DNA from: Robiginitomaculum sp.
Lineage (GTDB): Bacteria; Pseudomonadota; Alphaproteobacteria; Caulobacterales; Maricaulaceae
Direction of reading: 5' to 3'
Assembly (NCBI GenBank): GCA_030949705.1
Contig: JAUZSF010000017.1
Coordinates: 186,001-250,000 of the forward strand
Length of the DNA: 64,000 nucleotides
The notes under the pieces were generated by a model. It searched no databases, was not told the DNA's origin, and saw nothing but the letters and a program-made list of their open reading frames with translations. The position numbers and the translations under genes were made by a program. Shown here in pieces: positions 6,118 through 64,000 of the stretch (position 1 is its first letter; every line of letters begins with the position of its first letter).

Positions 6118-8274
<2,157 letters not shown>

Positions 8275-8414
8275 GGGTAGGTATCCGTCTATCTGAGGAT
8301 TGCGGGTTTACCCTTAGCCTTACCTTTCGTCCACCGGGCAATCTGCGCTTTGGCTTTTTTGTTCTCCCGGGATCCGAAAGCCGTCGGGCAGTTCAGGAGG
8401 GCCTGTGTGTCTCT

Positions 8415-8537
8415 CCATACTTCGAGGCCCTTCGTGGGTGCTGCGCACCTCCTCAGGACACCTCAGTATGAGGCGGTGTTAAATTTTAAACGTACCTCAT
8501 CCTGCGGTGCGAACGAAGAGAGCCTCGAAGGATGACT
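8415..8537. repeat. REP-like arms (copy A)
   Basis: Left arm ACTTCGAGGCCCTTCG and CCTCAG..CTCAGTATGAGG, right arm CCTCATCCTG...CGAAGAGAGCCTCGAAGGATGA. The arms are mutually inverted and can form a long imperfect hairpin. This family of dispersed palindromes is familiar from alphaproteobacterial intergenic regions. Confidence 0.7.
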
Positions 8538-8624
8538 AGAAGTATACGCCACCCACGCCGGTGTGGGGTAAGGTTTTGCTATCCCCATCCCCGACATCAT
8601 TGCACCGGCATGGAGACAATCTCT

Positions 8625-8648
8625 TTCCTCTCCCGGGTGGGAGAGGAA
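8625..8648. repeat. Inverted-repeat hairpin 1 (copy A)
   Basis: TTCCTCTCCC / GGGAGAGGAA arms around GGGT. The identical hairpin is at 63128-63151 in copy B. It has no following T-run, so it is not a typical terminator. Confidence 0.75.
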
Positions 8649-8701
8649 TAAGGTGAGGGATCAGAGGCTTAAAGAAAGGACTCAGGCTTTAATTCACAAG
8701 C

Positions 8702-8721
8702 CCCTCTCCCTAGGGAGAGGG
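8702..8721. repeat. Inverted-repeat hairpin 2 (copy A)
   Basis: A perfect 20-bp palindrome, CCCTCTCCC-TA-GGGAGAGGG. In copy B the matching hairpin (63217-63236) has CCTTCTCCC / GGGAGAAGG, a paired change that keeps the stem. Confidence 0.75.
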
Positions 8722-8766
8722 ATAAATCCCCCGTATAACGCCCCCAAGGGTCAAAGAGGATCATGC

Positions 8767-8861
8767 CTTACCCCTGGGTGTCCCTGCCCTTACCCCTAAA
8801 TTATCCCTGAATGAGAAAAAACGGACCCTGAAACGTCCCTCCTTTATCCCTGATTATCCCT
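8767..8861 (+). promoter_or_regulatory. Helically phased TTAYCCCT motif array (copy A)
   Basis: Eight CCCT cores, most inside TTACCCCT or TTATCCCT and some as GTCCCT, end at 8775, 8785, 8797, 8808, 8829, 8840, 8851 and 8861. The spacings are 10, 12, 11, 21, 11, 11 and 10 bp, so all sites fall on about one face of the helix. An additional off-phase CCCT ends at 8790. The matching array in copy B has spacings 22, 11, 21, 11, 11, 10, 10. This pattern suggests cooperative binding of an unknown protein; no function is known to me. Confidence 0.6.
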
Positions 8862-8885
8862 AACGGACACGAGGATAAACCAGGT

Positions 8886-8916
8886 TTGTCCCCACCCCGA
8901 AAAAGCAGTCTATACT
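8886..8916 (+). promoter_or_regulatory. Conserved promoter-like element after the array (copy A)
   Basis: TTGTCC (8886-8891) and TATACT (8911-8916) are separated by 19 bp, and copy B has TTATGC and TACAAT at the same 19-bp spacing. In this copy it points toward the ABC permease gene at 9084. The spacer is longer than optimal, so this is tentative. Confidence 0.35.
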
Positions 8917-9083
8917 GGGGCAATTTCCAGGCGCGTTGGGGCGATCCCCAGAATGACCCTCACCTTTCGAAACGAAGAACATGCATCGCTCTTTCCTTTG
9001 CCGGGCCATAATTTTTTATGCAGAACGATATTCCTAAATACTGTCGAGCATAGTATGGCTGTGGCAAGACCGTTCAAATCACA

Positions 9084-9884
9084 ATGCGTAGGAAAGTTTT
9101 GGTGTCGATTTCAGGGGGCGTATTCAGTTTAAGACGCATACAGCTTTGGGTTTACACATCCTGGTTTGAATTTCTCATCCGCTATCGCAAAACCATGCTT
9201 GGACCGCTTTGGCTGTTGGTCGGCCCGGCTCTTTTCATATCGCTTTTGGGTCTTCTTTATGCCCACGTTGGTGGCATTCCTGTTGAAAAGTTCATCCCCC
9301 ATTTGACCATCGGTATTGTGGTCTGGACGCTGATCACCGGGTTTCTGGTTGGCAGCACCCGGGTTTTTCAAAAGGCTCAGGCGCAGATTATGCAAGACGG
9401 TATTGATCTGATCGATATCGTTATGGTCAGTGTACTTTCGACGGTCATTCATTTTGCTCATCAGGTCGTCCTGATTATTGTTGTTTTGGCATTTTTTAAA
9501 GTACCGATAACGCCTTATGCCTTGGTGAGCCTGGTTGGGCTTGTTTTGCTGATCATTAACGGCATCTGGCTGACGATCGTTTTTGGAATCATCGGTGCCC
9601 GGTTTCGCGATCTGGCCGAGATTGTGCAAGCCATCATGCGCATCGCCTTTCTGGCCACCCCCGTCATCTGGATGCCGTCCAAGACCGGACGCGGCGGGGT
9701 GATGGGGGCCTTTTTGGATTTTAATCCCTTTTACCATTTTCTGGAGCTTATCCGCGCGCCGCTATTGGGAACCCCGATTGAGCCTCTTAGCTGGATCCTT
9801 GTCCTTTCGATTACGGTAACCGGCTTCCTTCTGGCATATATAAGCACCAGACTTTTGGCCAAAAACATAGCGCTTTGGGTATAA
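9084..9884 (+). CDS. ABC-2 type polysaccharide export permease (Wzm-like)
   Basis: An inner-membrane permease of about 266 residues with roughly six hydrophobic segments and the family N-terminal pattern LWVYTSWFEFLIRYRKTMLGPLW (motif YRKTxLGPLW). Such permeases pair with a Wzt-type ATPase to move lipid-linked polysaccharide (O-antigen, capsule or teichoic-acid-like) across the membrane. The ATPase gene follows after 5 bp. The ATG at 9084 has no ribosome site; a GTG at 9102 preceded by AGGAAA at a spacing of six is an equally good or better start. The gene belongs to an island that separates serS from tatC. The polymer exported is unknown. Confidence 0.9.
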   Translation: MRRKVLVSISGGVFSLRRIQLWVYTSWFEFLIRYRKTMLGPLWLLVGPALFISLLGLLYAHVGGIPVEKFIPHLTIGIVVWTLITGFLVGSTRVFQKAQAQIMQDGIDLIDIVMVSVLSTVIHFAHQVVLIIVVLAFFKVPITPYALVSLVGLVLLIINGIWLTIVFGIIGARFRDLAEIVQAIMRIAFLATPVIWMPSKTGRGGVMGAFLDFNPFYHFLELIRAPLLGTPIEPLSWILVLSITVTGFLLAYISTRLLAKNIALWV

Positions 9885-27605: not shown

Positions 27606-28814
27606 ATGCCCAAATTTCAGTATAAGGCAATACGGAAAAACGGCTCGACGGTCAGCGGTGAGATAGAAGCCGCTGATCAGGACGCCGCCTATCTGGCCAT
27701 TGAAAAACGACAATTGTCGCCGTTTTCCCTAGTCGAGCGCAAAGACTCGCCGCTGATGAATTTTCTGCGGGCGCGCAAGGTTACCCGCAAGGACCAGTCG
27801 GCCTTTATCCGCCAATTGGCCACCTTGCTGAAAGCCGGTGTGGGCCTGTTGGAAGCCATGAAAAGCCTGGCCAAGTCGAACGCCAATCCGGCACTGGCCA
27901 AATGCGCCGATGCCATCCGGTCAGATCTGCGCGCCGGTCAGCGCCTGTCGGAATCGCTGGAAACCCATATGCAGGACCTGCCCCGTTATGTGCCACGCCT
28001 GGCTGAACTGGGCGAAGCCACCGGCACCCTGGCCAAAGCACTGGCCGATGCCTCGGAACGGATGGAATTTGAAGACAGTATGCGCAGCGAAATTCGCGGG
28101 GCGCTGTCCTACCCCCTGTTTCTGGCCAGTGTTGGTGGCCTGATCGTGATCTTGATGTTCCTCTTTGTAGTGCCCCGCTTTGATGCCCTGATTGGCAATC
28201 ACCGCGATAATTTACCAGCCATTTCCAAAGTGGTGATCGCCACCGGCGTGTGGATGAAAGGACATATTCCGCTTTTTCTGGCCATAGCAGGGGTCTTTAC
28301 CGCCAGCGTGATCTTCATGGTTCGCAACAAGGCCGTGCGGGAATGGTTTCGCAGTACCGCAGAAAAAACACCGGTGATCGGTAGCTTTCTGATCCAGTCT
28401 GAAATTGGCGGCTGGGCGCGCACCATGGGCATTGCGCTGGATAATGGTGCCGACATTCTGACCGCCTTGCGCCTGGGGGCGTCTGGCCTGCAATCGCGGG
28501 AGCTGAAAAACGGTATGGAGGGGGCGCGCAGCGAAATCCGCGCCGGACGCAATATCGACGAGGTGCTGGAAGAACATCTGCCCGCCATGGATGCCCTGTC
28601 GATTGATCTTATTCGCACCGGACGCAATTCCGGTGCGCTCGCTGATATGTTATTATTCGTTGCCGACACCAAGGAAAAGGAAACCCGGGAGCGGGCAAAA
28701 GGCCTCACCGCCATTGCTGAACCGGCGGCCATCCTTTTTATTGCCATGATTGTCGGTACAATTGTGCTTAGCATTGTGCTAGCGATGACCAGCCTGTATG
28801 ATTTTGATATATGA
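27606..28814 (+). CDS. gspF: Type II secretion inner-membrane platform protein GspF
   Basis: A 402-residue polytopic platform protein of the T2SS. The N-terminus MPKFQYKAIRKNGSTVSGEIEA is typical and two T2SSF domains follow (about 70-190 and 270-395), each ending in membrane helices. GspF couples the GspE ATPase to pseudopilus assembly. The stop overlaps gspG by 4 bp. Confidence 0.94.
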   Translation: MPKFQYKAIRKNGSTVSGEIEAADQDAAYLAIEKRQLSPFSLVERKDSPLMNFLRARKVTRKDQSAFIRQLATLLKAGVGLLEAMKSLAKSNANPALAKCADAIRSDLRAGQRLSESLETHMQDLPRYVPRLAELGEATGTLAKALADASERMEFEDSMRSEIRGALSYPLFLASVGGLIVILMFLFVVPRFDALIGNHRDNLPAISKVVIATGVWMKGHIPLFLAIAGVFTASVIFMVRNKAVREWFRSTAEKTPVIGSFLIQSEIGGWARTMGIALDNGADILTALRLGASGLQSRELKNGMEGARSEIRAGRNIDEVLEEHLPAMDALSIDLIRTGRNSGALADMLLFVADTKEKETRERAKGLTAIAEPAAILFIAMIVGTIVLSIVLAMTSLYDFDI

Positions 28815-62731: not shown

Positions 62732-62922
62732 GGATACGAAAACTCTATCTACCCCGAAGTCCTGTCCGGGTGAAGCGCTAAGCTGGAACAATCACACTTT
62801 TGCCCAGATTGAAAAGGCAAAACACCGTTCTGGCATCCCTTTTATAGATCAGCCCAAGGTCGGGATTCCCATCTCAGAGCGTGCCCCGGCTCAAGGCCGG
62901 AGGCCCTGGGGGCGTGTGGCTC

Positions 62923-63041
62923 CATACTTCGAGGCCCTTCGGGGTGCGACGCCCGCCCTCAGGACACCTCAGTATGAGGTAGAGAATAATATGCAAACCT
63001 CATCCTGAGGTACGAACGAAGAGAGCCTCGAAGGATGACTA
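62923..63041. repeat. REP-like arms (copy B)
   Basis: ACTTCGAGGCCCTTCG and CTCAGTATGAGG on the left, CCTCATCCTGAGG and AGAGCCTCGAAGGATGA on the right; inverted arms as in copy A. Confidence 0.7.
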
Positions 63042-63127
63042 GAATAATACCCCATCCACGCCGGTGTGGGACAAAATATTTCTACCCCCATCCCCAAATC
63101 CATGGCACCGGCCAAGAGACGATCTCT

Positions 63128-63151
63128 TTCCTCTCCCGGGTGGGAGAGGAA
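63128..63151. repeat. Inverted-repeat hairpin 1 (copy B)
   Basis: TTCCTCTCCC and GGGAGAGGAA arms around GGGT, identical to 8625-8648. Confidence 0.75.
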
Positions 63152-63216
63152 TGAGGTGAGGGATCATAGACTTAAAGAAAGCGCACTATCTTTGCTTCCC
63201 AAGCCCCTCATCCCAA

Positions 63217-63236
63217 CCTTCTCCCCAGGGAGAAGG
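63217..63236. repeat. Inverted-repeat hairpin 2 with compensatory change (copy B)
   Basis: CCTTCTCCC-CA-GGGAGAAGG. Relative to copy A a C-to-T change in the left arm is matched by a G-to-A change in the right arm, so the stem is kept. Confidence 0.75.
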
Positions 63237-63281
63237 AGCGCCGCCGAGGATAGCAAACCTGAGGGTCAAAGAGGGTCACCT

Positions 63282-63386
63282 CATACCCCTAGGCATGCCC
63301 GTCTTTACCCCTGAATTACCCCTAAAGTTTGCAAAACTGCCCCTGAAACGTCCCTCATTTACCCCTCATTACCCCTGCTTGTCCCT
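63282..63386 (+). promoter_or_regulatory. Helically phased TTAYCCCT motif array (copy B)
   Basis: Eight CCCT cores end at 63290, 63312, 63323, 63344, 63355, 63366, 63376 and 63386, with spacings 22, 11, 21, 11, 11, 10 and 10 bp. Motif forms include TTACCCCT, ATACCCCT and GTCCCT. The spacing pattern matches the copy A array although the bases between the motifs differ. Confidence 0.6.
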
Positions 63387-63411
63387 CGGATAAGCGGGGA
63401 TAAAACCAAAG

Positions 63412-63442
63412 TTATGCCCGCCCTGAATAGGCAGGATACAAT
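63412..63442 (+). promoter_or_regulatory. Conserved promoter-like element after the array (copy B)
   Basis: TTATGC (63412-63417) and TACAAT (63437-63442) with the same 19-bp spacing as in copy A. In this copy it reads antisense into the 3' end of lpxC. Tentative. Confidence 0.3.
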
Positions 63443-63472
63443 GAGAGCATTTGCACATCGGGTGATCCGGAT

Positions 63473-64000
63473 TCAGTTTTCAATCTGGTGCCATTGCCAG
63501 GCCTCGGGATCATCCATCAGGGTTCTGATCAGGGCATTGTTCAGGGCGTGCCCGGCACAATTAGAGGTAAAATGCCCCCATACCGGTGCCCCGGCCAGGG
63601 CCATATCGCCAAGAATATCCAGAATTTTATGGCGGACAAACTCGTCGGTAAAGCGTAACGCGTCTTCGTTTTGCATGGTCATGCCATCGACCAGAATGCA
63701 ATTGTCCAGCGTGCCGCCAAGCGCCAGCCCCGCCTCTTTCAAGCTTTTGATTTCATGGGCTAAAGCAAAGGTGCGCGCCGGGGCGATGTCGGTAATAAAC
63801 CCGGCCGCCGTCACGGCAAAATCATAACTCTGATCACCGATCAGGGTATCCGGATAATCGATACGGGCGCTGATCTTGGGAGTGGTTGAGGGCGCGAGGC
63901 GAACCCAGCGTTCACCATCCCGGCAGGTGATGGCTTTGCGCACCTCGATATAACGCCGCGGGGTGTTTTGGCGTACCAGCGCGGCCTCACCAAGCAGGTC
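63473..64000 (-). CDS. lpxC: UDP-3-O-acyl-N-acetylglucosamine deacetylase LpxC (partial)
   Basis: The committed zinc-dependent step of lipid A synthesis. Only the C-terminal 175 residues are in the window; the frame is open to the right edge (DLLGEAALVRQNTPRRYIEV). The zinc/catalytic segment RHKILDILGDMALAG (His, Asp ligands) and CAGHALNN, with the catalytic His, are intact. The usual next gene, bamD, follows after the repeat. Confidence 0.95.
   Translation of the reverse strand, partial: DLLGEAALVRQNTPRRYIEVRKAITCRDGERWVRLAPSTTPKISARIDYPDTLIGDQSYDFAVTAAGFITDIAPARTFALAHEIKSLKEAGLALGGTLDNCILVDGMTMQNEDALRFTDEFVRHKILDILGDMALAGAPVWGHFTSNCAGHALNNALIRTLMDDPEAWQWHQIEN

Follow-up and report, generated by a model that had tools for sequence, protein, structure and literature searches.

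Phased CCCT arrays in Robiginitomaculum sp. are part of a family of promoter-like regions dispersed in the genome

The window analysed here is a 64,000-nucleotide stretch of the Robiginitomaculum sp. contig JAUZSF010000017.1 (assembly GCA_030949705.1). It carries two arrays of TTAYCCCT-like sites, copy A and copy B, both with a promoter-like segment on the right and a neighbouring gene (Table 1). The permease-like protein encoded downstream of copy A scores 185.7 bits with its best model, under the curated cut-off of 380, and has no Pfam match. The conserved feature is larger than the array to which the original prediction was confined and covers about 8726-8926 in copy A and 63255-63450 in copy B. 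Within the stretch of inverted sites, A27, G29, G30, A34 and G39 are invariant in alignment A1. The composites of REP-like modules at 8407-8725 and 62914-63240 contain CTTCGAGG...CCTCAGTATGAGG and CTCTCCC...GGGAGAGG, and their modules match many places of the genome, partly without an array. Both copies sit within a larger common repeat (84% identity in D1, 70% in D2), and the likeness of A to B is therefore by itself not independent evidence. Elsewhere in the window (6118-8274), serS and a surE-like gene are read in overlapping frames, with several open reading frames each, as expected of frame errors or broken genes.

Table 1. Features of the two array-bearing units and their neighbours in the window.
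Feature	Position	Strand	Remarks
Composite of REP-like palindromic modules, left of copy A unit	8407-8725		Sequence matches
Copy A, left end of conserved unit, ATCCCCCGTATA	8726-8737	+	Alignment A1
Copy A, pair of inverted-orientation sites, left of array	8747-8763	-	AGGGTCA and AGGATCA, 10 bp apart; sequence reading
Copy A, phased array	8767-8861	+	In-register CCCT at 8772, 8782, 8794, 8805, 8826, 8837, 8848, 8858
Copy A, box GAGGATAA, local form of conserved GGGGATAA	8871-8878	+	Starts 40 bp before -10 hexamer
Copy A, TTTGTCCCC at -35 position	8885-8893	+	CCC 32 bp (three turns) from last array core
Copy A, -10 hexamer TATACT	8911-8916	+	Aimed at ABC exporter permease ORF at 9084
ABC export permease-like gene, downstream of copy A	9084-9884	+	Best NCBIfam model galactan_ABC_perm
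Copy B, inverted-orientation pair AGGGTCA	63262-63278	-	10 bp apart; sequence reading, alignment
Copy B, phased array	63282-63386	+	CCCT at 63287, 63309, 63320, 63341, 63352, 63363, 63373, 63383
Copy B, GGGGATAA box	63396-63403	+	41 bp before -10 hexamer; sequence reading
Copy B, -10 hexamer TACAAT	63437-63442	+	Aimed at lpxC 3' end (antisense)
lpxC, continues beyond the window	63473-64000	-	Stop codon ~30 bp from copy B -10 hexamer

The CCCT positions were re-read, and the intervals given for both copies in the original prediction are correct. A ninth CCCT of copy A, at 8787, had been passed over; it lies out of register and splits the interval of 12 bp into 5 + 7. When a chain is defined by CCCT steps of 10-12 or 20-23 bp, the longest in-register chain comprises eight sites in copy A and also in copy B. 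This length is reached in none of the 2000 dinucleotide-preserving shuffles of each copy (maximum six sites for A and five for B), and the claim that the phasing exceeds that of shuffled sequence is thereby upheld. The vector strength at 10.5 bp is 0.72 in copy A, equalled by 39 of the 927 shuffles that contain five or more CCCT, and 0.91 in copy B, equalled by 3 of 530; for copy A it is a weaker measure than the chain length. Across the window, the six best plus-strand chains all fall in copies A and B, and the best chain on the minus strand has three sites. TTAYCCCT with one mismatch is not enriched there (74 occurrences vs 63.6 ± 8.5 expected; 13 of 100 shuffles contain as many). The distinguishing traits of the motif in the window are its clustering and register, not its abundance.

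The register is maintained in other genomes of the genus. A period of 10.7 bp fits best in all three species scanned (G000, the window's own genome; G011; G014), and the mean of cos(2πd/10.5) amounts to 0.61-0.79 in five genomes (29, 19, 17, 14 and 18 arrays) vs 0.02-0.03 for random placement. The CCCT-CCCT distances of G000 peak at 10-11, 21-22, 32, 43 and 53-54 bp; those of G014, in which the array sequence differs, lie at 11, 20, 22, 31, 43, 54, 65, 74 and 76 bp. Midway through the array, where the step is 21 bp, an A-rich stretch replaces a site and the register is kept. The helical phase is conserved between divergent species of the genus, which is better evidence than the likeness of copies A and B. 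The spacing is conserved between genomic copies, and a phase kept in divergent species favours the proposal that sites on one helix face would be bound cooperatively by a protein.

Copies A and B are two of about 35 related promoter-like regions dispersed in the genome. In G000 (2.83 Mb, 29 contigs), a DNA search with the whole composite returned 64 matches at E <= 0.001, and a search with the array stretch returned 33 matches at E <= 10, 27 of them below 0.001. A sequence-only profile (R1), built from the 29 own copies of alignment A1, gives 43 matches at E <= 0.01, of which 35 reach at least 83 bits and are taken as strong units, one of them interrupted by a contig end. The strong copies number 41-49 in G011, G014 and G004, and both orientations occur. 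Among the 18 genomes of the genus, R1 detects at least 13 units in 13, one weak match in three others and none in two. A second profile (R2), built from a divergent sister clade, detects several units in G012, G015 and G016 and none in G001 and G010 (520 and 200 contigs). Several units are therefore present in 16 of the 18 genomes when both profiles are combined. R1 revealed no other genus with units among the 19 genera sampled in the family (119 genomes, of which at least 14 belong to this genus, with stricter filters), and R2 gave single weak matches in two of the 119 genomes, from other genera (G044, E 2.5e-4; G076, E 3.8e-3), which are possibly due to chance. A phage or plasmid origin is not supported, no relatives being found by blastn at E 0.01 in either collection of records, and none of the 13 loci given to Rfam produced a match at gathering score. 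The iteron-like role that had also been suggested for the array has nothing seen in its favour, with about 35-50 dispersed copies per genome.

The left part of a unit starts with TTATCCCCCGCATA or AAATCCCCCGCATA, followed by one to three inverted sites (AGGGTCA) and the direct array. The right part consists of GGGGATAA, a CCC at the -35 position, TAnnnT and a short ATTTG, where the likeness between copies ends. An inverted pair, AGGGNYA N2-5 TWAYCCCT, forms the left boundary in 46 of 92 units, and the REP-like palindromic modules located further left are variable between copies. The half-sites resemble TTAYCCCT in the own genome, and TGACCCT and TTGCCCCT occur in other species.

Most units end in a rigid layout, in which the GGGGATAA box is followed 40 bp on by a -10 hexamer, TAnnnT, and the intervening DNA differs by locus. 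The distance from the GGGGATA box to the start of the hexamer is 40 bp in 65 of 73 units from four species (five at 41 bp and one each at 37, 38 and 42 bp), the 73 being those of 92 units with both elements recognised after the other 19, with no recognised box in range, had been dropped. The same 40 bp are found in 24 of 24 sister-clade units. Exceptions with inserted DNA are the fabI-like locus of G011 (L101, 1625-1715), where ~45 bp extra separate the TTATCCCCGCC/-10 part from the GGGGATAA box, and L160 of G004, which has an insertion between box and hexamer.

The -10 element was taken as the best-scoring hexamer near the end of the model, a choice that inflates its frequency and, to a lesser degree, its conservation in orthologues. 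This hexamer scores at least 8 of 9 in 83% of the 92 units vs 11% of shuffled segments, and its sixth position is T in all 92, partly by construction. Over 42 orthologue pairs, the identities along the hexamer are 0.90, 0.93, 0.60, 0.86, 0.81 and 0.95 vs 0.70 in the preceding 27 bp. Positions 1, 2 and 6 are conserved (0.90, 0.93 and 0.95), as in a sigma-70 -10 element, and low conservation at the third position is usual for a -10 box. The 32 pairs with an opposing gene show 0.88, 0.91, 0.53, 0.84, 0.75 and 0.94, with flanks at 0.64 and 0.62; in the 10 codirectional pairs the hexamer (0.80-1.0) stands out less from its well-conserved flanks (0.79 and 0.82). The units are homologous, and counts over copies are not independent. 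According to PMC8407463, T at -7 is missing from most alphaproteobacterial promoters, and the present ones would therefore fall in a minority class.

A TTGACA-like hexamer is absent 16-18 bp upstream of the -10, where mainly CCC is kept (in TTATCCCC or GCCCGC). The last array core lies 32-33 bp from this CCC in 48 of 61 units, a count biased upwards by choosing the candidate nearest 32, and 31 bp from it in 19 of 22 sister-clade units. The missing -35 hexamer is compatible with an activator-dependent promoter. The activator or repressor role put forward in the original prediction is retained in kind, as most units are followed at a fixed distance by a conserved -10 hexamer, which had been overlooked; the regulation may be activation or repression, and the missing -35 hexamer leans towards activation.

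The gene context was read with an ORF heuristic, for which two readings disagree at a few loci. Of 34 own units, 24 face a right-hand gene on the opposite strand and 10 a codirectional one, and the stop codon of the opposing gene lies within 20 bp of the unit end in 15 units. Among the opposing genes are phoB, lpxC, holC, rmlD, a fabI-like gene (below the NCBIfam cut-offs) and those for an MCP and a pfkB-type kinase. The codirectional genes encode, among others, a malate/lactate dehydrogenase, an exonuclease III-like protein, a MerR and a Crp-like regulator and, at copy A, the ABC exporter permease-like protein. Several neighbour genes have no Pfam match. On the other side, the left gene is transcribed away from the array in 11 of the 34 own units, one further unit being ambiguous.

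The arrays and the core promoters differ in their evolution. The 20 best-scoring units were fetched from each of G002, G007, G011 and G014, and 42 of the 60 from the first three adjoin the same right-hand gene as an own unit (G002, 16/20; G007, 17/20; G011, 9/20); the left neighbour is often different. In the array, the identity of orthologues (0.74, 0.70 and 0.60) is hardly higher than that of own paralogues (0.71-0.72). In the right segment, the orthologues reach 0.78, 0.68 and 0.58 vs 0.51-0.53 for own paralogues, and orthology is clear on average. For the array, a paralogue of the same genome surpasses the orthologue in 35 of 42 pairs, and for the right segment it does so in 21 of 42; taking the best of many biases this comparison towards paralogues. 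The orthologue is the single best own match in 20 of 42 pairs for the right segment and 6 of 42 for the array. The array looks homogenised between the copies of one genome and the core promoter more locus-specific. The simplest reading would be recombination within the genome between arrays, with breakpoints on the left, the core promoter presumably being inherited with the right-hand gene.

Phased direct-repeat operators with a pitch of 10-11 bp are a known kind of element. The MraZ operator of the dcw cluster has a TGGGA/TCCCA core every 10 bp and resembles the arrays in its short direct repeats, its 10 bp pitch and its position just upstream of a gene, and TATCCCAT/TTCCCAT is similar to the array motif TTATCCCT. 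Upstream of mraZ (L246-L251), three TCCCAT repeats with a 10 bp pitch, which we take to be MraZ's own site, are present in all six genomes examined. The MraZ-type operator comprises three repeats of a TCCCAT core (A after CCC) at exactly 10 bp and one locus, whereas the arrays have a CCCT core, about 8-10 sites, steps of 10-11 and 21-22 bp, inverted boundary sites and 35-50 loci. MraZ was rejected as the binder on the motif (CCCT in the array core vs TCCCAT at mraZ). In operators of the OmpR/PhoB family (pho box, tor boxes, CtrA sites), cooperatively occupied repeats of 10-11 bp are arranged head to tail and extend from upstream into the -35 region of sigma-70 promoters. The arrays are alike in their 10-11 bp direct repeats, but the operators of this family usually have 2-4 repeats and another core, and we know of no family of 35-50 alike copies among them. 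The type II partition centromere parC, bound by ParR, has phased 11 bp repeats beside a promoter. It is a plasmid locus with adjacent par genes, whereas the arrays are dispersed over the genome and have no phage or plasmid match. The original prediction knew of no described element of this form. No such dispersed array-promoter element was found in the literature searched (mostly without subscription journals), but phased 10-11 bp operators are well known and one of MraZ type is present in this genome. The traits not found described are the dispersal, the likeness within a genome, the fixed welding to a core promoter and the placement at gene ends.

The units are probably dispersed, array-controlled promoters run by a cooperative DNA-binding protein on one helix face. 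One protein would recognise the TTAYCCCT-like half-sites and occupy about 8-10 direct sites cooperatively along that face, with the inverted sites as bounds. The bound protein would then control the primary-sigma RNA polymerase at the -10 hexamer 40 bp beyond the terminal GGGGATAA box. The CCC at -35, three turns past the last core, suggests that the protein contacts the core promoter, either as an activator or as a repressor acting by occlusion. Control of the attached promoter would be exerted in class-II fashion at 35-50 loci. About one third of the own units, including copy A, would have their promoter directed at a codirectional gene; in the remaining two thirds, including copy B, an antisense or noncoding transcript would start at the opposing gene's 3' end. 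Against the promoter reading, most own units have no downstream gene in the sense direction, which is odd for a promoter regulon.

The main alternative, which we consider unlikely, is a non-autonomous dispersed repeat (REP-, BIME- or MITE-like) with no promoter function, whose phasing would result from common descent and from the tandem multiplication of a unit of 10-11 bp, and for whose insertion the 3' ends of genes would be tolerant. The copy numbers (35 strong copies in G000 and 41-49 in the three other genomes), the palindromes to the left of many copies, the frequent opposing gene on the right (24/34) and the likeness of the arrays within a genome all suit such a repeat. REP/BIME elements and MITEs likewise have many intergenic copies, are common at gene 3' ends and are modular. 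Gaps of 10-11 bp form a secondary peak among own paralogues (97 of 1074), the commonest length being 1 bp (461); the one-base gaps may partly be the same assembly noise as the serS and surE-like frames. In addition, the pair TTATCCCC...GGGGATAA, located near the two ends, looks like terminal inverted repeats, but the conserved unit extends past the right one to ATTTG. Unlike the palindromic stem-loop of REP/BIME, however, the array is made of direct repeats bounded by inverted sites. Most units stand at a fixed distance from a conserved -10, and this 40 bp distance, kept despite diverging intervening DNA, and the selective conservation of the -10 in orthologues call for a function. Many positions are common to G000, G002 and G007, so that rapid hopping of the units is not indicated. 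The single locus tried revealed neither an empty site nor a target duplication; there, the own contig C23 (near 28430-28500; L256, ~1370-1450) has a unit truncated after its first sites and G002 has the full unit.

The arrays could also be chromosome-organising or insulating sites, occupied by a nucleoid or condensin-type protein at gene 3' ends and at roughly even distances. This is improbable, although the units are placed at gene 3' ends, both orientations are present and the spacing is somewhat more even than random (Greenwood P = 0.027 in G011, 0.114 in G000 and 0.006 in G014, on 4, 5 and 6 contigs). The evenness is weak, low-scoring matches were counted in it and loss of close repeats by recombination could cause it; moreover, the conserved -10 hexamer and its fixed distance stay unexplained. 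Less probable still is a role at the RNA level, with the C-rich strand as a Rho-loading (rut) site that ends transcripts from the left gene, or the G-rich strand as a G-quadruplex. The array strand does contain more C (0.33-0.35) than G (0.13-0.17) in four genomes, and periodic YC suits Rho primary sites. G3+N1-7 patterns are present in 16 of 32 units of G000, 8 of 20 of G002 and 11 of 20 of G007, vs 1-2% of shuffles. On the other hand, a left gene that runs away in 11 of 34 own units provides no sense transcript to be ended, and neither Rho nor a G-quadruplex explains the inverted boxes and the hexamer. A G-quadruplex element kept across species (four G-tracts, loops of at most 7) was rejected, the pattern being found in 2 of 20 units of G011 and 0 of 24 of the sister clade, both of which retain the phasing.

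A broader form of the promoter reading is tentative, and we hold it to be somewhat doubtful. In this genus-specific system, one cooperative protein on 35-50 homogenised phased arrays would switch promoters that fire mostly into opposing 3' ends (phoB, lpxC, holC, the fabI-like gene and others); the resulting antisense or terminal transcripts would jointly tune or insulate core genes, and in one clade the units would have become a family of boxA-tagged noncoding RNA genes. Phased operators are usually one-off sites, and dispersed repeats are usually viewed as passive. The present units combine the two, with a long phased operator joined to a core promoter by a fixed spacing in dozens of loci, mostly facing gene ends. 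If the promoters are active, these units would offer a readily available case of coordinated antisense control in bacteria.

The boxA-bearing units are those of the sister clade. In 24 aligned units of G014, G006, G009 and G013 the hexamer TATAAT is invariant, the divergent L223, which has TAAAAT, being excluded from the alignment, and a boxA-like GCTNTTTGACA follows in 24 of 24. A boxA lies 3' of the promoter in 18 of the 20 fetched G014 loci, a contig end truncating the remaining two. Downstream of the G014 hexamer come a short stretch resembling a hairpin, then the boxA, and then ~150 nt in which conserved and variable parts alternate with the neighbouring gene beyond; some copies have six consecutive T near the end of these ~150 nt. 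A strongly folded RNA was rejected (z-scores of +0.47 to -1.12 in six folds; two-sided change in 1 of 12 consensus pairs). As support from folding is weak, the sister-clade units are said to lead a putative transcript only, one that would bear a boxA.

The form GCTCTTTGACA, found in 17 of 18 sequences of alignment A3, is identical to an 11-mer of the rRNA leader of G014. This leader (L162, upstream of 16S) has no array and shares the boxA 11-mer with the array-linked putative transcripts. An origin of the array from an rRNA promoter was rejected: the sole 16S locus found, that of G014, has only the boxA in common, and the search in three other genomes yielded no 16S. The sister-clade units resemble the boxA/Nus-factor leaders of rRNA operons and suhB in having GCTNTTTGACA after the promoter, but here the boxA is repeated dozens of times behind an operator array, and nearly all own units are without it. 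PMC5725501 gives the gamma-proteobacterial boxA as GYTCTTTAANA. Nothing was found in the literature searched on boxA-bearing noncoding RNA with antitermination in Alphaproteobacteria. A boxA as a general part of own-type units was rejected: at least 9 of 12 letters are matched in 12 of 92 units, vs 14 of 92 on the reverse strand and 4 of 92 further downstream. One of the 32 own units, L055, matches 11 of the 12 letters, the only one to do so; it is of the sister-clade type, and its orthologues in G002 and G007 likewise adjoin the DASS-type transporter gene. In L105 (G017), a boxA-like GTTCTTTGACATTGTG is placed farther downstream of the box than usual, behind a palindromic insert.
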